Shown here in pieces: positions 4,688-19,094 of a DNA stretch of 42,096 bases. Source of the stretch: Sulfurospirillum sp. UBA12182 (lineage in GTDB: Bacteria; Campylobacterota; Campylobacteria; Campylobacterales; Sulfurospirillaceae); assembly GCA_002742765.1 (NCBI GenBank), contig DLUF01000093.1:1-42096 (forward strand), read 5' to 3'. The position numbers and the translations under genes were made by a program. Each line of letters opens with the position of its first letter. Within the stretch, counting starts at the first letter, position 1. The notes below the pieces were generated by a model. The model had not been told where the DNA came from, ran no database searches, and saw only the letters and a list, made by a program, of their open reading frames with translations.

Positions 4688-5374
4688 ATGAAAAACAAAA
4701 ACTTTAAAACATGCATAAAATGTCACTCTTCTGCCCTTTATAAGGTTTCTAGTACACAAGTAAAATGTAAAAAATGTGGTAAAAAATTTAGCCTAAAAAA
4801 ACTAGAATTGGATTATACGATTGTTGAGTATTTTTGCAATGATTATAATGCAAATGTAACGAGTGAGCTTTTACATGTAAACTACAAAACAGTTTATGAA
4901 AGATACACTGATTTAAGAAAACTTGCTTTTGAACATCTTGAACAAAAATATTCTTCAAATGCCCATAAATTTGTCGAGTACGATGAATACTACTATCTTC
5001 CAAAAACAAAACGAGGAAAAGTTAAGTATCTTTTTGATTCCATTGGAATTTTAGGAATGGTTTCTGATGACTTTGTATATACGCTCATTTTACCCGATCA
5101 ATTTGCTCACCTTAAAGAAAATTGTGACATAAACTTAGCACATCTCAAAGAGTACTCAAGATTTTTAAATCGTTATAAAATTGTTCATTTTCAAAAATTT
5201 GATAATCTTCTTATTCGGTTTTGGGTTTTTTTAGAAAATTTTACAGACAAATATAAAGGTATAGACAAAAAAAATTTCATCTATTATCTCAAAGAGTGTG
5301 AATTTAGATTTAACTATGAAAAACAAAAAAGAGAAGAGATACTTTGGGATTTATGGAAAAGAAGTTTATCGTGA
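4688..5374 (+). CDS. Degenerate IS1595/ISXO2-type transposase-like protein, probably domesticated
   Basis: The protein has 228 residues. An N-terminal zinc ribbon (C9, C12, C27, C30) is followed by a likely helix-turn-helix (about 40-85). Then come pieces matching the ISXO2 transposase core: EYDE around D99 followed by K-x-K-R-G-K, a segment DNLLIRFW (172-179) like the family's TN-x-x-E-x-F-W, and a C-terminal FRFN (207-210). The acidic residue expected three before W179 is Ile, and the Lys after it is Glu, so catalysis looks lost. The length is short of the usual 300 or so residues, and no terminal inverted repeats were seen. It is divergent from hypB and overlaps the end of the PAS-GGDEF gene by 9 bases. 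A role as DNA-binding regulator is a guess. Confidence 0.6.
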   Translation: MKNKNFKTCIKCHSSALYKVSSTQVKCKKCGKKFSLKKLELDYTIVEYFCNDYNANVTSELLHVNYKTVYERYTDLRKLAFEHLEQKYSSNAHKFVEYDEYYYLPKTKRGKVKYLFDSIGILGMVSDDFVYTLILPDQFAHLKENCDINLAHLKEYSRFLNRYKIVHFQKFDNLLIRFWVFLENFTDKYKGIDKKNFIYYLKECEFRFNYEKQKREEILWDLWKRSLS

Positions 5375-7345
5375 GATAACTACCCTATTCTTTCCACTTC
5401 TTTTTGCTTCATATAGTGCCTTATCTGCTTCTTCTACTAATTTTTGTTCACTTTGAGTCTTTTTTTTCAGTGTTGAAACTCCAAAAGAGCAAGTTTGATA
5501 TCCAACTGCTAAAAAATCATGTTTTTGCACTATATTTTTAAGTTTTTCTGCCAGAGCAGCAGCTTGAAGCATATCTGTTTTAGGTAAAATAATTAAAAAC
5601 TCTTCACCACCCCACCTTCCAAAAGTATCTGTTTGTCTACAATTTGATTTAATGAGAGAAGAAATCTCTTTAAGTACACTATCACCTGTTTGATGTCCAA
5701 AATTGTCATTAACACTTTTAAAATCATCAACATCTAAGATAATTAAAGACAATTCTTGTTGATATCTTTTTGATTGATTTAACTCATAAGTTAAAACACT
5801 ATCAAGTTTTAATCTATTATGTACTCCTGTCAACTTATCAGTTATAGAGAGTTCTTCAACTTTTTTTCTATGTGTGATATCATGACTTATAGCTGTATAG
5901 CCTATTTTTTGATTTTCTTCATCATAAATTGTGGATATAGTTTCATAAACCCAGAATGAAGAACCATCTTTAGCTAAATTCTTCACTTCTCCAGTCTATG
6001 ATTGACCAGATTCAATTTTCTTCCACATTGCAGAAAAAAAAGTTTTTGGCATGTCTGAATGTCTTATAATATTGTGATTTTGTCCGATAAGTTCTACTTT
6101 CTTATATTTTGAAATTTTGCAAAAAGCTTCTGAAACATCTGTGATAACTCCCGTTAGATTAGTTGTTGAAGTGATGATGTTTTCATTTATTAAATTGATA
6201 TAGTTTTGCATCTGTTTTTGTGTTTTTTTCGAAGTAGTTATATCTTTTGTTGCTGCTAAAATTCTTTGTTTGTCAGGCATTAAACTAAGAGACATACTGA
6301 TATTAACTATTTTATTATTTTTGACAATACAAGTTTTTTCAAAATTTTCTACGAAACCTTTTTCTAAAAGTTCTTGAACTATGTTTTTTGCTCTTTGAAC
6401 ATCTTCAGGGATACTCATGCTAATGCAACTTTTCTTTTTTAGCTCTTCCGCAGTAAAACCTGTCATATCCAGATAAGCACTATTAAAGTGTAAAAAATTT
6501 GTTTCTAAATCTAAGATTGCTATACCATCTTTTGTTGTTTCAAAAATAGTTTCAAAATCATTTTCTAAAATTTTTTGTTTATTTATATCACGATGTGTTC
6601 CTATCAATCTAATCGGTTTACCTATCTCATCTTTCTTGATAGCAACACCCCTATCTAAAATCCATTTATAAGTTCCATCTTTGCATTTTAATCGATGTAT
6701 ATTTTCGTAAAATTCCGTTTTACCTTCAAAATAGTTTTTTATATCTTCAAAAACCATTTGTATATCATCAGGATGAATAAGCTTTTTCCATTCATCAACA
6801 TTATTTTTGATTTCATACTCTTCATAACCAAGCATGTTTTTCCATTGTTTTGAAAAATATACCTCAGACGTTAAAACATTCCAATCCCAAAGCCCATCAC
6901 CATTTCCTTCAATTGCAAAACTCCATCTTAAGTTTACATCTTCTAATTCTTGTTGAAGTGCTTTTTGTGCAGTGATATCTAATAGATATCCGATTAAATG
7001 AGTTACTTTTGAGTCAGTTTTTAGCTTTAATGTAGAATCATGAACCCAAAGATATGAGCCATCTTTTTTTCTAATACGGTAGGGTTTATGTTCAAAAAAT
7101 TCTTCTTTTTTTTCTAATGCAATTGCAACGTCCGAAAAAATTCTTTCAAAATCTTCAGGATGAATAAGCGAATCATAACTTATCTTACCACTCAAAAAAT
7201 CACTTTCACTATATCCTAAGATTCTTTGTATATTTTTAGAAACACTTTGCACTGGCCAATTGTTTTGATTTTTCCAAATAAAAACTACAACAGGACCTTT
7301 GGTAAAAAGTTCTGAATGAATAAGACGTGTATAGTGTTCTAACAT
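5366..7345 (-). pseudogene. PAS-PAS-PAS-PAS-GGDEF diguanylate cyclase, interrupted by an in-frame TAG
   Basis: The intact protein would make cyclic di-GMP in response to signals sensed by about four tandem PAS domains (residues about 20-140, 141-265, 265-380, 380-495). The GGDEF domain follows, with GGEEF in GRWGGEEFLI and DVDDFK for metal binding. The reading frame is interrupted only by TAG at 5996-5998. It reads GQS-stop-TGEVKNL, where relatives have W (TGG) at the start of the W-x-GE motif of the fourth PAS domain. The cyclase part continues in the same frame, with a possible GTG restart at 5986. The upstream part alone (5996-7345) lacks a cyclase. An ATG at 7345 is preferred over a TTG at 7360 that lies in the nikR terminator. 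TAG serves as a normal stop elsewhere (hypA). Confidence 0.85.
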
Positions 7346-7348
7346 AAT

Positions 7349-7380
7349 AAAAAAGTTCAAAGGCCTTTTGATGGCCTTTG
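7349..7380 (-). terminator. Rho-independent terminator after nikR
   Basis: On the minus strand, AAAGGCC and GGCCTTT pair across a 7-base loop (7359-7379), followed after four bases by a run of six T (7349-7354). It lies just after the nikR stop and immediately before the ATG of the PAS-GGDEF gene. Confidence 0.75.
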
Positions 7381-10117: not shown

Positions 10118-11793
10118 TAATTGTCTATTGGTAGCTCTCGATTAAAAGAGAGTTTACTAGAGGCTAAAATATTGCGACTTGACAATTCACTTAACCTCCT
10201 AATCCCAAAAAGCGACCCACAAAGAATGATTCTTTGAGATGATAAGTTTTCTTTATAAAAATCAGCACTATCACTTAAAAAGTAAGATAAAGATTCTAAA
10301 AAACCAAAACTAAGAGTGTTATCATCGGTTCCAGCTAGTTTAAAACTCATAGCACTTCTTATCATCTTAATAAAATTAAAATTCGATACTAAAGCTTCAG
10401 AATCAAAAAGTGGATAATCCACTCTTGGACCTTTTTGTCCGCCATAATCTTCAGCATTTTCAATTAATTTTTCAGCAGCATTTTCATATGTTTGTGAAAA
10501 TCCTAATAAGACTGAACAAATACCCCACATCGTATAGATACTATTTGGAGCATCTTGTGGAATTTTTATTTTTAAAGCATTATCCACAAGTTCTGGAAAC
10601 TTTTGAGTATAGTTTTCAAGGAGTTTTTCTCCTGTGCTTGATTCTTTAATTTTTTCAAAGATTTTTTCAAAATCTTTTTCAACTGGGAAACTAACTAGAT
10701 CAAGCATTCCTGTTTGCTTAGAAAGATGCATAAATTTATCTTCATGCGTCTTGCTCAAATAAAAACAACTTGACTGCTCAGCGAATAGGTCTCTTTCTTG
10801 TATAACAGAGGTAAACTGAGCATGTGCTGGATTTTCAAACTTTTTCAAGTTCTCTTTAACTAGTGGAGCGCTATATCCATCACCACTTACGATAAGAATT
10901 TCTCCATTTTCAAGTACACACACTTCTATTTGTGGTGTTTGTGATAAAGTAGCATCGGTTTTTAAAACAAAATCAAAATCTTCATTTTGTTCTATTCTCG
11001 ATAAAAACTCTATACCTTCTTTAAAACAAAAATCACAAATGAATTTTATAAGCAAATCATCTGCAAGCTTAAGTTTTACTCTACTTTGCGACAAAATTCC
11101 TTTTGTCGCATAAAGTGAATTAACTTTAAGTCTGATAGCTGGTTTTTCTAAAGAAGCAATTGCTTTTATCTCGTTTTCTTTGATAACAACCATTTTTTCT
11201 ACTACTGATAAATCAGTAGCAATTACTATCGAGTCTTTTGTAGCTTTATTTTGACTTGCAACTTGAGAGTAAATATAAGAACCACTTGAAGAGTGAATTA
11301 AAACTTTTTTACCTTCTTTTAAAAGCTTTGCTACACCTTCATATAGTTCTTGAAACTTATCATTTGCAAGAAGCAAGGTATTTTCAAGATTATCACAAAG
11401 CTCTATTTTTGAACCATTTGAAAAAGGAACATTACCTATTTCATTAGCAACAAAAGGTGTCATAAAAAATTGACTTTTTTCATCTGTCACTAAAGCTAAT
11501 GTTTTTGGTGTAAAAGGTAAGGTAAGTTTACAATCTTCTAAAACAGTATTTTCCTCTTTTTTTTCAACAACGCTTACACTTGATGATTTAAAAAAAATGG
11601 AAAGTGGTAATCTATTTGATAAAAAATCAGAAAAAGCTCCCAACTGTTCCTCATTTGCGTTTACAAACAGTGAAACAATGGAAGAATTTTTTGTAATTGA
11701 GTAATCTATTTCAAAGTCTTCACAAATGGATTTTAATAAGTTTTCTAAAACTCCATTTTGTGAAACATAATGAAATTCAAAGGATAAGATCAT
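10117..11793 (-). CDS. hydE: HydE, accessory protein of the Wolinella/Helicobacter-type hydrogenase
   Basis: The fifth gene of a hydABCDE operon corresponds to HydE of Wolinella and Helicobacter, where it is needed for full hydrogenase activity by a mechanism not established. The 558-residue protein has no clear catalytic motif that I recognise and no signal peptide. The assignment rests mainly on position, length and general character. The ATG at 11793 is chosen because AGAAGAGA lies just upstream and it follows the hydD stop by one base; a longer start at 11820 would overlap hydD. The end is coupled to hypF by TAATG. Confidence 0.75.
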   Translation of the reverse strand: MILSFEFHYVSQNGVLENLLKSICEDFEIDYSITKNSSIVSLFVNANEEQLGAFSDFLSNRLPLSIFFKSSSVSVVEKKEENTVLEDCKLTLPFTPKTLALVTDEKSQFFMTPFVANEIGNVPFSNGSKIELCDNLENTLLLANDKFQELYEGVAKLLKEGKKVLIHSSSGSYIYSQVASQNKATKDSIVIATDLSVVEKMVVIKENEIKAIASLEKPAIRLKVNSLYATKGILSQSRVKLKLADDLLIKFICDFCFKEGIEFLSRIEQNEDFDFVLKTDATLSQTPQIEVCVLENGEILIVSGDGYSAPLVKENLKKFENPAHAQFTSVIQERDLFAEQSSCFYLSKTHEDKFMHLSKQTGMLDLVSFPVEKDFEKIFEKIKESSTGEKLLENYTQKFPELVDNALKIKIPQDAPNSIYTMWGICSVLLGFSQTYENAAEKLIENAEDYGGQKGPRVDYPLFDSEALVSNFNFIKMIRSAMSFKLAGTDDNTLSFGFLESLSYFLSDSADFYKENLSSQRIILCGSLFGIRRLSELSSRNILASSKLSFNRELPIDN

Positions 11794-11794
11794 T

Positions 11795-12334
11795 TTATCT
11801 CTCTTCTTTACATGAATCATTGGCTACTGTTTGGATATCAACTTCTTCTATTAGTTCATATTTAAAGCCAAGTTCATTCATATGATTTAAAAATGTTTTT
11901 TCCATAAGTTTACTACCTTCTATAACTGGTTGAGTCATTTCAAGCGTAGTAATCTCAATAACTTCAGGAACAATTCCTACTATTTTTGTTGGAGGTCTAT
12001 CACCTACCATATCCATCATAGATAAGGTATGTAGCATCTCAACTTCATGTACACTTCCTTGAAATTTTATACTATTTGGGATATTTTCAAAATCAAAAAA
12101 ATAGACATCACCTATCTTTCCACCATCAGTGTCAACAGTATCAAAAATGATACAATAATCATATGATGCAATAATAGGGATAAGTGCTTGAGCGAGTGTG
12201 CCACCATCTACAAAAGTGACAGAGTGTTCTTTTGAAGTAAACTTGTATTTTCTTTCCATTAAGCGGCATAGATGTACTCCGACACCTTCGTCGGAGAACA
12301 TCACATTGCCTATTCCTAAGACTAAAACCTTCAC
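11795..12334 (-). CDS. hydD: HydD, hydrogenase large-subunit maturation endopeptidase
   Basis: This is a HyaD/HybD-family protease that removes the C-terminal tail of the HydB precursor after nickel insertion. The N-terminus VLVLGIGNVMFSDEGVG is the family signature. The nickel-contacting residues of HybD (E16, D62, H93) correspond to E16, D64 and H94 here. It starts with GTG, four bases after the present stop of hydC. Its substrate is most likely HydB, which keeps a 21-residue tail; the second large subunit in this window has no tail and should not need it. Confidence 0.93.
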   Translation of the reverse strand: MKVLVLGIGNVMFSDEGVGVHLCRLMERKYKFTSKEHSVTFVDGGTLAQALIPIIASYDYCIIFDTVDTDGGKIGDVYFFDFENIPNSIKFQGSVHEVEMLHTLSMMDMVGDRPPTKIVGIVPEVIEITTLEMTQPVIEGSKLMEKTFLNHMNELGFKYELIEEVDIQTVANDSCKEER

Positions 12335-12337
12335 TTT

Positions 12338-13018
12338 TTAGTTCTTAGTGATCTTGTTTTTCAAACTTATAACCACTGATGATTGAATCAATTGATCCTT
12401 CTTTACCCATAATAGAGTTAAAGATAGCCATATATATATATGAACAGGAACAAAAATTAAGATTCCCCACATAGCGATATGATGTATTTCTCTTACATTC
12501 GCAAGACCACCCATCATAACTTCTAGTGGACGCATATAATCATACAGTGCACCTCCTAGACCTTCATGGTAAACATGTACATAAAGGACTAATCCAGTTA
12601 TACATACCACAAACACCATAGCATACAAACCAATATACGCTACGAATTGTAATGGATTATAAACACCTCTTAAATGAGGATGTTCACCCATAAACAAGTA
12701 GTATTTGATTTGTGCAAACCAAGTTTTTGGACTTAAAAAATCAACTATTGCAATTCTTTCTCTCATACTTTGTTTATCTACTAAGAAAAGATAAGTTTTG
12801 TAAATAGTTACGGCGATTAATAAAAATCCAGCAATTTGGTGCCACATTCTAAATTTTGCATTCAAAAACAATATTGGCTCGTCAGATGCTTCTGGTGCAA
12901 TAAATACATATGCTAGATAAAAACCTGTCACTGTAAGCACTGCAATAGCAATAGCTCTTAACCAGTGAGTCCAGCGTAAACCAGCAGAAAATTCGAATTC
13001 AATCTTTCTTCTTGGCAT
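12338..13018 (-). CDS. hydC: HydC, di-haem cytochrome b anchor of hydrogenase, 3' end out of frame
   Basis: HydC anchors HydAB in the membrane and passes electrons to menaquinone. The four haem ligands known in Wolinella HydC (His25, 67, 186, 200) fall at H18, H60, H179 and H193, a constant offset of seven. Four membrane helices are visible (about 18-38, 58-80, 122-148, 178-200). After Y195 the encoded tail is abnormal (I-W-L-S-L). Removing one AT unit from the (AT)6 tract at 12430-12441 instead restores M-A-I-F-N-S-I-M-G-K-E-G and a family-like end, stopping at 12345-12347. The restored protein would be 223 residues. The present form may be a switched-off phase variant, a mutation, or a sequence error. 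Confidence 0.92.
   Translation of the reverse strand: MPRRKIEFEFSAGLRWTHWLRAIAIAVLTVTGFYLAYVFIAPEASDEPILFLNAKFRMWHQIAGFLLIAVTIYKTYLFLVDKQSMRERIAIVDFLSPKTWFAQIKYYLFMGEHPHLRGVYNPLQFVAYIGLYAMVFVVCITGLVLYVHVYHEGLGGALYDYMRPLEVMMGGLANVREIHHIAMWGILIFVPVHIYIWLSLTLLWVKKDQLIQSSVVISLKNKITKN
12430..12441. repeat. (AT)6 dinucleotide tract inside hydC
   Basis: Six AT units lie in the coding part of hydC just after the fourth haem ligand codon. With five units the downstream frame gives a normal HydC C-terminus; with six it does not. Such tracts change length by slipped-strand mispairing. Confidence 0.9.
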
Positions 13019-13042
13019 TATTGACTCCCTTCTAGTCTATAT

Positions 13043-14791
13043 TTAGCAAGATGCACCGTTTGGATCAACTTTATAACTACTTAATTCATTACCTTTTGTA
13101 TCCATTACATGTACTGCACAAGCAAGGCATGGGTCAAATGAGTGAATAACTCTTACAATCTCAAGTGGTTGAGATAAATCAGCGATTGGTAAACCAATCA
13201 AAGACTCTTCGTAAGGTCCTCTTACCCCATTTGCATCTTTTGGACTTGCATTCCAAGTAGTTGGAACAACAGCTTGATAGTTCTCTATAACACCGTTTTT
13301 GATAACAACCCAGTGACTAAGAACACCTCTTGGAACATTACCTATATAACGTCCTTTGTAAACTTTATTTTTATCAATTTTATAACTTGTGTATGTTGAA
13401 TCATCAACTTTAAGATTTTGAACTAAGTTATTAAATGCTTCCAAAGCATTATCAGCAATAATCTTAGTTTCTAACATACGGCAAGCTGTTCTACCTAAAG
13501 TTGAAGCAACTGCTGTGATAGGTAGACCTGTTTTTGCTAAAAATTCATTAACAACTTTTTGTACTTTTTGATTTCCTTTAGCATAGTTAACAACGATATT
13601 GGCAAGTGGTCCAACTTGTAAAGGTTTTCCATCATAACGAGGAGACTTAACCCAAGAGTATTTTCCATCTTCATGGATAACTTTTGTTGGAGCCATTTCA
13701 CCTTTACCGTTAACTGTTTGCTCTTCTTTGAAACCAGTATACTTAGGATTTGTTTTTCCATCATATGGATGAAGTGCTTCATCATCTTGATACCAAGAGT
13801 GAGTTGCTTCTTCTGTAATTTTTGATTCATCTAAATCGTGAACTTTATAAGGTTTACCTGTCACGAGATTGATTACATCTTCTGCAAACATAACACCACT
13901 ATCGAACAAGAAACTGTCATTTCCTACTTCAAATTCTTTGTATGTCCAAAGGTTAGCAGTTCCTAAACCAGCATTAACACTAGGCTCACCTGCGTAAGCA
14001 AGTCCTGCCATAACAACGTCAGCATAGTAAGCACGGTTAACGAAATCTGCCATTTCTTGGAATTTTGTCAAATACTCACCAAGACGTGCAGGAGATTGTA
14101 AATCCATGATACAAGTCACACCACCAACAGTTAAGCTTTGTGGATGTGGTTGTTTTGAACCAAAAATTGCCATCATCTGAGCAGCAGTTCTTTGCATCTC
14201 AAGAGCTTTAAGATAGTGAGATACTGCGATGAGATTTTGTTCTGGAGTTAGTTTGTAAGTTGGATGTCCCCAGTAAGCATTAGCAAATGGTCCAAGGTGT
14301 CCTTTTTTAACAAACTCAGCAACTCTTCTTTGAACATTTTTTAATTCATCTTCACCTGTTGCAATCGGGTTATCAGTATATTTAAATGCTTCTTTACTAG
14401 CTTTTGCTGGATCTGCACTAAGTGCTGATACAACATCTACCCAGTCAAGACCATGTAAATGATAAAAATGTACAGGGTGATCATGTAAGAACAACGCTGC
14501 ATTCATCAAAGTTCTTGTTAATCTTGCATTAAGCGGTGGTTTAATGCCTAATGCATTTTCAACAGCTTGGATACCTGCTTTGTAGTGTGAATATGTACAA
14601 ACACCACAAATTCTTTGTGTAAAGAAGCCAGCATCTCTTGGATCTCTTCCTTTAAGGATTGTTTCAATACCTCTCCAAAGAGTTGAAGATGAATAAGCTT
14701 CTGTAACTTTGTTGTTGTCATCAACGATAACTTCAACTCTTAAGTGTCCTTCAATTCTAGTGATAGGATCGACTACTATTCTTTTACTCAT
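13043..14791 (-). CDS. hydB: HydB, [NiFe] uptake hydrogenase large subunit
   Basis: This is the catalytic subunit of the periplasmic, membrane-bound group 1 hydrogenase. The four Ni-Fe cysteines are visible: RICGVC with C62 and C65, and DPCLAC with C555 and C558, followed by A-V-H561. The 21 residues after H561 form the tail that HydD should remove. Length (582) is typical. The gene follows hydA by 17 bases, with an AGGAAGGA ribosome site before the ATG. It has no signal peptide and would be exported with HydA by the Tat system. Confidence 0.97.
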   Translation of the reverse strand: MSKRIVVDPITRIEGHLRVEVIVDDNNKVTEAYSSSTLWRGIETILKGRDPRDAGFFTQRICGVCTYSHYKAGIQAVENALGIKPPLNARLTRTLMNAALFLHDHPVHFYHLHGLDWVDVVSALSADPAKASKEAFKYTDNPIATGEDELKNVQRRVAEFVKKGHLGPFANAYWGHPTYKLTPEQNLIAVSHYLKALEMQRTAAQMMAIFGSKQPHPQSLTVGGVTCIMDLQSPARLGEYLTKFQEMADFVNRAYYADVVMAGLAYAGEPSVNAGLGTANLWTYKEFEVGNDSFLFDSGVMFAEDVINLVTGKPYKVHDLDESKITEEATHSWYQDDEALHPYDGKTNPKYTGFKEEQTVNGKGEMAPTKVIHEDGKYSWVKSPRYDGKPLQVGPLANIVVNYAKGNQKVQKVVNEFLAKTGLPITAVASTLGRTACRMLETKIIADNALEAFNNLVQNLKVDDSTYTSYKIDKNKVYKGRYIGNVPRGVLSHWVVIKNGVIENYQAVVPTTWNASPKDANGVRGPYEESLIGLPIADLSQPLEIVRVIHSFDPCLACAVHVMDTKGNELSSYKVDPNGASC

Positions 14792-14808
14792 TAACTTATC
14801 CTTCCTAC

Positions 14809-15969
14809 TTATTCTTCACTCTTAGAACCACTGCCCTTAACAGCAGCGATTGCTGCATGAGCCGCGATACCTACTGCAGTAGCAGTTAACAGTGCGATAC
14901 CAACTTTATCAGCTGTTTTATCCGCACCCTCTCCATAAACTGTTTGATACAATCTATCACCAAGAGGTTCTTCAAATGGTCCCATAGCATCCCAGAAATC
15001 TGGTTCACTACATCCGATACAACCGTGTCCTGCTTGTACAGGCCATGAAGTATGTTGATTAAATCTTTCTCTTGAACAGTTGTTGAAAGTATAAGGTCCT
15101 TTACAGCCTACTTTATATAGACAGTAACCTTTTTTTGCACCTTCATCACCAAATTCTTGTACAAATTCACCAGCATCAAAACGGCCACGTCTTTCACACA
15201 AATCGTGGATTCTGATACCATATGCCCATTTTGGACGATTAAATGCATCAAGAGCTGGAAGTGTACCAAATAAAATATAGTGTAAAACATTTCCTACTAT
15301 ATTTTTCTCACTTGGAGGACATCCTGGAACATTGATAACAGGTTTATCTGTAACTTTACTAAGTGGTTGTGCATTAGTTGGGTTTGGATATGCAGCTTGT
15401 ACACCACCAAAACTTGAACAAGAACCGATTGCAAAGATTGCAGCAGCATTTGCAGCAGCATGTTTAGCATGAGCTTGTCCTGTTTTTCCATGTGGTCCAA
15501 CTGTTAAGTAAAATTCACTACTTCCAGCAGGGATACCACCTTCTACCATTAAAATATATTTGCCCTTGTATTTCTCAATAGCATGTTCTAAGTTATGCTC
15601 TGCTTGCCATCCACAAGCTACCATAAGTGTTTCATGATACTCTAATGAGATGTGATCAAAAATTAACGAGTCAATAGTTGGAGCATCAGTTCTTAATAAG
15701 CTCTCACTACAACCAGTACACTCTGCCATATGTAGCCATACTACTGGCAATCTGTCAGTTAGCTCAGCTGCTTGTGCCATAAGTGGCGTAAACGTTGAAG
15801 GCAATGATAACATTGCAGTCATTCCAGCAGCCCATTTCATAAAATCACGACGACTAATGCCATGATCTTCTATCAGCTGAGTAATTGACTTGTTCTCCTT
15901 CAATTGGGGGAACTTCGCAAGACTTTCTAATCTCTCAGAAATCTTTTGGTACAGTTCAGCGTGTTCCAT
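14809..15969 (-). CDS. hydA: HydA, [NiFe] uptake hydrogenase small subunit with Tat signal
   Basis: The small subunit carries three Fe-S clusters from the active site to HydC. A long N-region leads to a twin-arginine motif SRRDFMK (R40, R41) and a hydrophobic stretch ending near AQA at residue 67. The proximal cluster starts with CTGC (C84, C87), then GSCSSFGG and PGCPPSE. Medial and distal cluster cysteines follow in the C-terminal half (GCIGC). A C-terminal membrane helix lies at about 352-372. A clear AGGAG site precedes the ATG. It is the first gene of hydABCDE-hypF. Confidence 0.97.
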   Translation of the reverse strand: MEHAELYQKISERLESLAKFPQLKENKSITQLIEDHGISRRDFMKWAAGMTAMLSLPSTFTPLMAQAAELTDRLPVVWLHMAECTGCSESLLRTDAPTIDSLIFDHISLEYHETLMVACGWQAEHNLEHAIEKYKGKYILMVEGGIPAGSSEFYLTVGPHGKTGQAHAKHAAANAAAIFAIGSCSSFGGVQAAYPNPTNAQPLSKVTDKPVINVPGCPPSEKNIVGNVLHYILFGTLPALDAFNRPKWAYGIRIHDLCERRGRFDAGEFVQEFGDEGAKKGYCLYKVGCKGPYTFNNCSRERFNQHTSWPVQAGHGCIGCSEPDFWDAMGPFEEPLGDRLYQTVYGEGADKTADKVGIALLTATAVGIAAHAAIAAVKGSGSKSEE

Positions 15970-16236: not shown

Positions 16237-17568
16237 TTATTGGGTAGTGCAAACAGAACAAATATCAAAGCTTTTAAATACAAAATCAGCTTTTTTTATC
16301 TCATCTAAACCGATAATAGCTTTTTGTGCAATCGCAGGGTTTTTTACTGTCCCATTCCCTAAATTCCAAACAGTAGGAGTTATAATATCATAAGATTTAA
16401 TAAGTCCTTTTTTAATCTCCATAGAGTGCATGAGAGAGCCTCTTGCTGCTTCAACGATACCTACCCCTTCACTTGTAATATCTTGATAGTTTAATTTTGG
16501 AGAGTTACAAGATGCTTCTTTTAGATTTAAATTTTCTAAAAGTGTTTTAGTTCTTTGTAACAAATGAGCTATTTCACTTACTCTTGCTACAACCCTCGTA
16601 AGTGTTGAATCTTTTGTTCTTCTATGAAAATCTCTTATCAAAGGATCTTTTGCTATCATAAGCCTAGCGATAGGTCCTGTTTCAAAATATCTCTCTTTAT
16701 AAATTGCACTTTTTGAGTAAGTATAGCCATTTTGAGAAAAGAAAGAGTTTTCTAAACTCTCACTTACAAACCGATAATCAGCATTTGCGATAATCGTTCC
16801 ATTGCATTTTTGTCCTTGATTGTACATGTAACTTTCACCAAGCGATATAAATCTGTCATAACTTTTACCATAAAGATTAAATCCAAAATCATTCAAAAGT
16901 TGTACAACTCTACTTAGTATACAACTATTACCCATGATTTGTATAGCTAAATTATAAGAGAGATACTCCTCTAAAGTTGTCCCAAAAATCTCATTTTCAC
17001 AAAAAGTTATCACTTCATCAAGATAGACAAGTGCATCATTTATATCATTTTGTATAGGGTCACAAGTCACACCTCCAACCATACAAAAGGAGGCATGAGG
17101 CCATTGTCCACAAAAAATCGCAGCTACTTTTAAAACTTGGATGATTGCTTTTTGTGCTTTTTTCCACTCTTGGTCATCAAAAGCATATTTGTTGTTATCT
17201 TTAAATTTCATAATTTCAGGATATATGTTGAAATAAAACCATTTTATATGATTTTGAATTTTTTCTACATTTAAAACAATTTCTCTTATATCCTTTGCTT
17301 TTTGAGGAATTGATAAGTTATACCCAAAATTTTCATATGCATTTTCAATAGCATTTATAGAAGCAATTACATGAGAAGTAGAACATATCCCACAAACTCT
17401 TGGTGTAATGGCTAAAGCATCTAAAAACGGTCTTCCCTCTAAGATATTTTCTATACCTCGATAATTTAAAAATTTTATCTTTGCAAAAGAGATTTTATCA
17501 TCTTGCCACTCTACTTCTAGTGAAGCTTCACCTTCTATTTTTTCTATTATCTCTTTAGTTATTTTCAT
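16237..17568 (-). CDS. Cytoplasmic [NiFe] hydrogenase large subunit, no C-terminal tail (sensor/group 2-like)
   Basis: The N-terminal Ni-Fe motif is TPRVCGIC (cysteines 59 and 62 when counted from the ATG at 17568). The C-terminal motif is D-I-C-S-V-C-T-T-Q at the very end. The protein stops exactly at the position where other large subunits have His before the cleaved tail; here that residue is Gln, and Pro of DPC is Ile. Lack of a tail is typical of regulatory hydrogenases and means no protease processing. The length (443) is short compared with HydB. The ATG at 17568 is preferred over a TTG one codon earlier. It overlaps the small-subunit gene by 14 bases. Function as H2 sensor or cytosolic uptake enzyme is inferred. 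Confidence 0.88.
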   Translation of the reverse strand: MKITKEIIEKIEGEASLEVEWQDDKISFAKIKFLNYRGIENILEGRPFLDALAITPRVCGICSTSHVIASINAIENAYENFGYNLSIPQKAKDIREIVLNVEKIQNHIKWFYFNIYPEIMKFKDNNKYAFDDQEWKKAQKAIIQVLKVAAIFCGQWPHASFCMVGGVTCDPIQNDINDALVYLDEVITFCENEIFGTTLEEYLSYNLAIQIMGNSCILSRVVQLLNDFGFNLYGKSYDRFISLGESYMYNQGQKCNGTIIANADYRFVSESLENSFFSQNGYTYSKSAIYKERYFETGPIARLMIAKDPLIRDFHRRTKDSTLTRVVARVSEIAHLLQRTKTLLENLNLKEASCNSPKLNYQDITSEGVGIVEAARGSLMHSMEIKKGLIKSYDIITPTVWNLGNGTVKNPAIAQKAIIGLDEIKKADFVFKSFDICSVCTTQ

Positions 17569-18454
17569 CAATCAATCTCTTTTCTAAACGTTCAATTTTA
17601 AAGCTTTTTGCGATTCCAGCAAGTGAATAATAAGCTCTTTTACTAATCCCAAAAGGTGTCGCTGGCAAAGACATATTTTTGTGAGTTTCATACAAAGCAT
17701 GTTTTGGAAAGTCAAATTCTGTACAACCAAGACATGCAGAACCCACTCTTGTTTTAGAGCTTGTTTTATTCCATAAAATTTTATTGCAATTAGCGTGAGT
17801 CATCGGGCCTTGACATCCATGTTCATAAAAAAGACAACCCTCTTTTAAACCAAAATCCTTGCAATCAACTTTCCACTCAAAATACTCATTTCTTAAGCAA
17901 CCATGATGCACAAAATAGGAAAAGATTTCTTTGGGTCTTTTGTATTCATCAAGTAAGATGTTAGAGCTATTTCTTAGAGTAAAAAGGGTTTGAACAAACC
18001 ACTCAGGATGCATAGGACAACCTGAGATATTGATAACATTTTTCTTCTGCTCACTCCAGTAGCCGCCTTGTTTTTTCCCATTAAAAACAGCTCCTGTAAT
18101 CTCTTCTGGATTATTTAGTCTAAAGATTCCTCCAAAACTAGCGCAACTACCAGCACAAATGATATATCTAGCTCTTTTTTCTAAGTTATCAACTATCTTA
18201 GTAAAAGGTATTTCAAAACGAGAGAGGATAGAAGGATTTTTACTCAATGCTCCTTCTATAACTAAAAAATCAAAAGAAAAATCACTTTCTAAAACATCAT
18301 GAAGTGAATATTGCGTATTTATTTGTGGATGGTGTAAAATATGGAAATTTTTAGAAAATACTTCTAATTTTTCATAGTTAAAAAAAGAATGCGAATTACC
18401 ATTACATGTAAGACCTTGCAGCCAAACAATTGTAGATGGATTTTGTTTAGTCAT
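17555..18454 (-). CDS. Cytoplasmic [NiFe] hydrogenase small subunit with Cys-to-Asn change in proximal cluster
   Basis: There is no signal peptide: the protein begins directly with VWLQGLTCNGN, so the enzyme is cytoplasmic. The proximal cluster ligands are C17, C104 (GSCASFGG) and C146 (GCPMHPEW). The usual second cysteine of C-x-G-C is N20 (codon 18395-18397). The later clusters look complete: H183/C186, C198, C207, C214, C223, C241, C244. The GCPMHPEW form resembles group 2 (HupU/HupS-like) small subunits. There is no C-terminal membrane helix. It overlaps the TetR gene by 8 bases and the large-subunit gene by 14. Confidence 0.88.
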   Translation of the reverse strand: MTKQNPSTIVWLQGLTCNGNSHSFFNYEKLEVFSKNFHILHHPQINTQYSLHDVLESDFSFDFLVIEGALSKNPSILSRFEIPFTKIVDNLEKRARYIICAGSCASFGGIFRLNNPEEITGAVFNGKKQGGYWSEQKKNVINISGCPMHPEWFVQTLFTLRNSSNILLDEYKRPKEIFSYFVHHGCLRNEYFEWKVDCKDFGLKEGCLFYEHGCQGPMTHANCNKILWNKTSSKTRVGSACLGCTEFDFPKHALYETHKNMSLPATPFGISKRAYYSLAGIAKSFKIERLEKRLIDENN

Positions 18455-19094
18455 AATTTTTTAAAGCATGATAGATATTATATGAAATGTCATCGATATA
18501 CTCTAATATATCTTTTTCCAAAATTCCCTCTCCATTTAAAAAAGCAAAGCCCCCAAGATATCCCATAAAAAGACCAAAAGCTGTAAAAAAATCTTGATTT
18601 CTTAGTTTCCCACAAGCAACACCTTCTTCAAAAAAAATCATCATTTCAGTCACAAAAGAGGAGACACATAGCATTCCTTCACAGCCATCTTTAAACACCT
18701 CTTTATTGGAGAGATAAACACGCAAAAAATAGTCTATGTGTTGTGGTTTATACTTTGCAATTTTAAAGTATAAAGAAACAATTTTTTTAATTTTTTCTTC
18801 AACAGGAATTGATTGTTCGTTTACTTTTTTTATCTCAGAGCCTAAAATGTTAGAAGAGTACTTTATAAGCTCCTTTGCTAAAAGTTCTTTTGATGAAAAG
18901 TAGTTATAAAAATTTCCTACGCTCATATTCATATCTTTAGCGATATCAGGGATAGTAGTCGAAAAAAATCCTTTTTGTGAAAACAGAAGAAGCGATGTTT
19001 CTAAAATCTGTTCCATTTTTTGGTATTTTTTATTTGAAACAACTTCTTGACAAGAGTCTATCATTATTTTTTCACTTTTTTTTTGCCCAGCCAT
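18447..19094 (-). CDS. TetR/AcrR-family regulator heading the cytosolic hydrogenase operon
   Basis: The N-terminal helix-turn-helix (about 25-75) reads ILETSLLLFSQKGFFSTTIPDIA, then MSVGNFYNYFSSKELL, the standard TetR pattern. The C-terminal ligand domain is unassigned. Start at the ATG 19094; an alternative ATG is at 19064. The stop overlaps the hydrogenase small-subunit start by 8 bases, so the regulator and the enzyme are translated together. It could control its own operon, hydA, or both. A perfect palindrome TAATCGATTA lies 27 bases upstream of its ATG. What it senses is unknown. Confidence 0.88.
   Translation of the reverse strand: MAGQKKSEKIMIDSCQEVVSNKKYQKMEQILETSLLLFSQKGFFSTTIPDIAKDMNMSVGNFYNYFSSKELLAKELIKYSSNILGSEIKKVNEQSIPVEEKIKKIVSLYFKIAKYKPQHIDYFLRVYLSNKEVFKDGCEGMLCVSSFVTEMMIFFEEGVACGKLRNQDFFTAFGLFMGYLGGFAFLNGEGILEKDILEYIDDISYNIYHALKNYD

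Follow-up and report, generated by a model that had tools for sequence, protein, structure and literature searches.

The closest described counterparts of the locus considered here are the HydABC hydrogenases of Wolinella succinogenes and Sulfurospirillum multivorans, in which the operon order is the same and the cytochrome b subunit HydC (TIGR02125, PF01292) likewise has four conserved histidines. The membrane-bound hydrogenase of S. multivorans contains cytochrome b and reduces a menaquinone analogue with H2 (PMC5357620). The DNA analysed here (the window, 42,096 nucleotides) is contig C78 of a Sulfurospirillaceae assembly of 2.25 Mb in 120 contigs that is 98.8% complete. Its HydC differs from that of W. 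succinogenes and S. multivorans in that residues 196-226 lie off the family frame.

Two further systems bear on the comparison. Dinucleotide phase variation at SSR loci of Campylobacter and Helicobacter likewise involves a six-unit tract within a reading frame, where one unit shifts the frame. Candidate phase-variable dinucleotide tracts in Campylobacter are counted from six units upwards, and some mutate at less than 1e-5 (PMC6321876); for Helicobacter canadensis, repeats have been described that switch C-termini (PMC2823697). Unlike these loci, the hydC tract is not conserved, sits in a genome nearly without such tracts, and affects a respiratory enzyme. The other system consists of non-functional, frameshifted genes known from Sulfurospirillum, two of which are tabulated as such in one study (PMC7755780). 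They resemble hydC in that one frameshift interrupts a gene that is intact elsewhere, and in coming from the same bacterial family, whereas the hydC change lies in a dinucleotide run and affects just the last seventh of the protein.

The hydC gene and its operon

The gene is part of an operon of hydABCD type for a membrane-bound [NiFe] hydrogenase, on the minus strand (11795-15969; Table 1). HydA, HydB and the adjoining hyp genes look intact, so that there is no sign of wider hydrogenase decay, a point that tells against the reading preferred below, and hydC is single, no second copy having been found in the genome. Upstream of hydABC lies a second [NiFe] hydrogenase pair, consisting of small and large subunit ORFs (16237-18454) with no adjoining cytochrome b gene; a TetR-like regulator ORF is found beside it at 18447-19094.

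Table 1. Features of the hydC region of the window
Feature	Position	Strand	Basis or remark
hydC as assembled, cytochrome b subunit of membrane-bound [NiFe] hydrogenase	12338..13018	(-)	ORF, 226 aa
hydC, residues 1-195 standard, 196-226 outside family frame	12338..13018	(-)	translation, relatives, profile matches
C(AT)6G tract inside hydC	12430..12441	(-)	five units in nearest relative
H193 codon, by position the last haem ligand, intact in six-unit frame	12440..12442	(-)	invariant, 48 aligned sequences
Out-of-frame tail, hydC residues 196-226, IWLSLTLLWVKKDQLIQSSVVISLKNKITKN	12341..12433	(-)	pLDDT <50 over 206-226
Five-unit-frame DNA for the conserved HydC tail MAIFNSIMGKEGSIDSIISGYKFEKQDH; stop 12345-12347	12348..12439	(-)	translation, relatives
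hydB, large subunit, intact	13043..14791	(-)	directly upstream of hydC
hydA, small subunit, Tat-type signal, intact	14809..15969	(-)	upstream of hydC with hydB
hydD-like maturation protease ORF	11795..12334	(-)	begins 4 bases past six-unit hydC stop

A preliminary description of this DNA had stated that an (AT)6 tract puts the C-terminus of hydC out of frame, and translation bears this out. The tract ATATATATATAT at 12430-12441 is the sole occurrence of this sequence in the whole 2.25 Mb assembly. With six units, H-I-Y-I-W stands at residues 193-197, and the tail that follows is foreign to the family. With one AT unit fewer the protein continues H-I-Y-M-A-I-F-N-S-I-M-G-K from residue 193 and ends as ...HIYMAIFNSIMGKEGSIDSIISGYKFEKQDH, for a total of 223 amino acids. 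This five-unit end, which the preliminary description had called family-like, agrees with relatives through the final residue. The insertion, which shifts the frame after Y195, thus alters the last 31 residues, approximately the last seventh of HydC. Because the hydD-like ORF starts so soon after the six-unit stop, both hydC frames terminate just before hydD.

Profile scores rise with the same correction. The match to Pfam PF01292 goes from 95.2 bits over residues 10-198 with six units to 114.2 bits over residues 10-215 with five, and that to TIGR02125 from 226.6 to 262.8 bits. The latter is an equivalog model whose curated cut-off of 121.5 bits is exceeded even as assembled; the matches to both models reach the profile end only in the five-unit reading. 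The HydC sequence also matches E. coli HyaC (4gd3), with E = 1.8e-17.

Conservation and predicted structure of the C-terminal cap

HydC is present in 41 of 44 genomes of the bacterial family, and a match is found in 213 of the 399 genomes sampled across the order. Among the family matches listed, every one except that of the window reaches residue 219-223 in the five-unit frame; the window match stops at 201 and picks up again in another frame. The order-wide matches listed, the window aside, show no break at the tract position. When the DNA is read at the tract, the standard tail is encoded in 62 of 62 homologues, with a length of 29 to 34 residues counted from H193. None of these 62 shares the tail now encoded in the window; the preliminary description would have taken a shared tail as evidence against its reading, which thus survives its own test. 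A conserved alternative C-terminus was considered as well and rejected: adding AT to the genes of relatives yields tails of 4 to 77 residues without pattern.

The residues retained and the residues lost are both conserved. The four histidines H18, H60, H179 and H193 are invariant in an alignment of 48 sequences that includes the window HydC; from knowledge of Wolinella HydC we take them to be the haem ligands, and the earlier statement that all four are kept stands. H193 and Y195 are also invariant in the 62 homologues. Within the lost tail, D210 and G215 show no variation among 47 homologues, in which N200, G207, I212 and S214 are at least 90% conserved; these six residues of the cytoplasmic C-terminal tail are missing from the protein as assembled and are all present in the five-unit reading. 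The preliminary description had instead stressed residue 196, which it equated with Met203 of Wolinella HydC, reportedly shown by mutagenesis to be needed for menaquinone reduction. Residue 196 is indeed mostly Met (53/62), but it is not invariant, and since Leu occurs there naturally (9/62) the argument is weak; a better one is that the conserved tail is lost in its entirety.

Structure prediction agrees in placing the lost part on the quinone, or cytoplasmic, side, as had been proposed. The AlphaFold model of the nearest relative's HydC has four long membrane helices, a helix at 208-214 and strands at 5-8 and 216-219, the cap region of this standard protein being modelled with moderate confidence (pLDDT blocks 46 to 63). 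When the six-unit protein is modelled, both strands are absent, pLDDT falls below 50 over residues 206-226, and the helix bearing H193 runs on through residue 206, so that the haems may still bind. The cytoplasmic cap is therefore predicted to be lost from six-unit HydC, a firmer loss than that of Met196. By analogy with the S. multivorans enzyme, and judging from these models, HydAB could continue to oxidise H2 with quinone reduction impaired. We know of no mutant with exactly the six-unit tail.

Origin of the six-unit allele

In the nearest relative, 95% identical, the tract reads C(AT)5G, an uninterrupted run of 10 bases, and in every other one of the 62 homologues alternating A/T stretches at the tract position span 7 bases at most. 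The sequence C(AT)5G results from encoding the conserved peptide H-I-Y-M in AT-rich codons (CAT ATA TAT ATG). On comparison of the sequences, then, the hydC repeat is a by-product of codon choice common to two sister species and no conserved repeat. Its occurrence is also unexceptional in number: one alternating A/T 12-mer is observed against 0.7 to 4.1 expected for this genome size under Markov models (orders 1 to 4), and the idea that the tract is commoner than chance was rejected. The broken frame does exceed chance, no other frameshift having turned up among 171 conserved genes set against a relative.

The DNA beyond the tract retains the imprint of its former frame. Over codons 197-223, read in the five-unit frame, there are 10 nucleotide differences from the nearest relative, of which nine are at third positions; eight of the nine changed codons are synonymous and one is not. 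The hydC codons upstream of the tract show the same substitution pattern. The predominance of third-position differences implies that the shift is recent. By this measure the five-unit frame is one that was selected until recently, although the count is small and silent on the fixation of the present allele.

It is probable, if by no means assured, that hydC has undergone a recent, non-programmed +AT slippage that impairs electron transfer from H2 to menaquinone. According to this proposal the common ancestor of the genome and its nearest relative would have encoded H-I-Y-M as CAT ATA TAT ATG, giving C(AT)5G, and one AT would have been gained in the present lineage or in the sequenced cells, giving C(AT)6G and a frame shift past Y195. 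The resulting HydC would keep its four membrane spans and all four haem ligands, but would lose the cap next to the expected menaquinone site, made up of the C-terminal helix and a strand paired in the AlphaFold model with the N-terminal one. HydAB may still be made and exported, with transfer from H2 to menaquinone impaired or lost. Of this scheme, sequence comparison shows that the AT is an insertion with respect to every relative, that the ancestral frame was the standard one and that this frame was recently under selection. Should the six-unit allele be real, it would provide a natural HydC with haems and without the cap, on which the role of the cap in quinone reduction could be tested; on present evidence an important gene carries an ordinary frameshift allele.

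The main competitor is a misleading consensus, arising from faulty sequencing or assembly or from the choice of a minority allele, such that the cells carry five AT units and a normal HydC. The assembly is fragmented (120 contigs); hydC, its neighbours and the downstream frame all appear to be under selection; and the run whose length changed is the genome's longest dinucleotide repeat, the likeliest place for slippage in amplification or assembly. Against an error stands the fact that short-read chemistry normally reads dinucleotide runs of 12 bases correctly. The error rate of the assembly was assessed by comparing 492 kb of the genome (~22%) with 1.2 Mb of the relative G038. Among 171 conserved genes so matched (167 kb), hydC has the sole frameshift, which makes gross indel error unlikely, and in conserved genes all 185 homopolymers of A or T that are 7 or 8 bases long are in frame (182 matched reading frames, a related count). 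The notion of an indel-prone assembly thus finds no support, and an error confined to the AT tract is regarded as rather unlikely, though the strongest of the alternatives. If it should prove correct, it would counsel caution in inferring lost functions from one fragmented assembly.

Other irregularities were flagged in the same comparison. An apparent second frameshift traces to the reference genome, where nadD and rsfS are fused, with no break here: the two form one reading frame in G038 (L147:4717-5601) and two adjacent genes in the present genome (L079:1-706). A stop near residue 10 in one match is ascribed to start-site choice. The sole internal stop upheld among the 171 matched genes is in mutS7, considered below.

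Tract switching and mismatch repair

The preliminary description interpreted the tract as a reversible phase-variable switch; on this view frequent changes of length would turn quinone coupling on and off in a subpopulation. The arithmetic of the tract is suitable: five units give an intact hydC and six a broken one by translation, so that a change of one unit toggles the frame; six units is exactly the cut-off applied to Campylobacter dinucleotides (PMC6321876); and since both frames end before hydD, a switch would leave the next gene undisturbed. The wider comparison speaks against it. No hydC repeat maintained at varying lengths is seen among the 62 homologues; the uninterrupted run is common only to the genome and its nearest relative and is broken up in the others, and hence has not been preserved as a contingency repeat. 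A count over the 2.25 Mb assembly, restricted to (AT)6 and poly-G among repeat types, finds a single (AT)6, that of hydC, and a single poly-G of at least 8 bases, with no further tract in a gene. The poly-G is an intergenic G9 by an apparent tRNA (G000:C75:4293-4301, L190). The tract before the insertion presumably had five units, under the six-unit cut-off, and even tracts at the cut-off may mutate below 1e-5 according to the source of that cut-off (PMC6321876). Moreover, the product is a metabolic enzyme and no surface structure. In view of the unmaintained repeat, the near absence of other variable-length repeats and the presumed five-unit ancestor, the proposal of a switch is not upheld, and we consider it improbable. 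Were the tract truly to switch, a respiratory enzyme of a free-living bacterium would be phase-variable, which is rarely the case.

Mismatch repair is an aspect of the genome that might favour slippage. No MutL scores over the cut-off in the genome, and a mutS gene encoding MutS with a C-terminal HNH has an in-frame TAG near residue 314 (G000:C61, about 11746-11748; loci L056 and L118), so that slippage is possibly less well repaired. MutS with a C-terminal HNH is the MutS7 architecture (PMC3166940). The gene is intact in most of the relatives that possess it, and in G017, G020, G032 and G034 it is split into at least two pieces or shortened. To judge from these gene structures, the mutS7 break, which recurs in the family, might make for a mutator genotype; as a lead only, loss of the gene could raise slippage. 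That a strain with broken mutS7 toggles the hydC tract so often that clonal populations always mix menaquinone-coupled and uncoupled HydAB is slightly more doubtful again than switching itself. Arcobacter butzleri, Sulfurimonas denitrificans and apparently Wolinella-like genomes are described, in a mismatch-repair context, as devoid of the G:C tracts that Campylobacter and Helicobacter have (PMC2147049).

Least credible of all is that the new tail is functional, or that slippage along the AT run, in translation or transcription, brings back the frame: the H193-bearing helix is predicted to extend through residue 206, and Ile196 by itself would not necessarily be fatal given the natural Leu at this position, but the tail resembles that of none of the homologues, is without the residues invariant across those of the Campylobacterota, is modelled with very low pLDDT beyond that helix, and no typical slippery sequence is recognised.

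Elsewhere in the window another gene is interrupted by an in-frame stop that is absent at the matching position from its paralogues and from relatives (~50% identical). This is a PAS/GGDEF gene on the minus strand (5366-7360), with a TAG at 5996-5998 (...WKKIESGQS*TGEVKNLAKDGSSFWVYE...).
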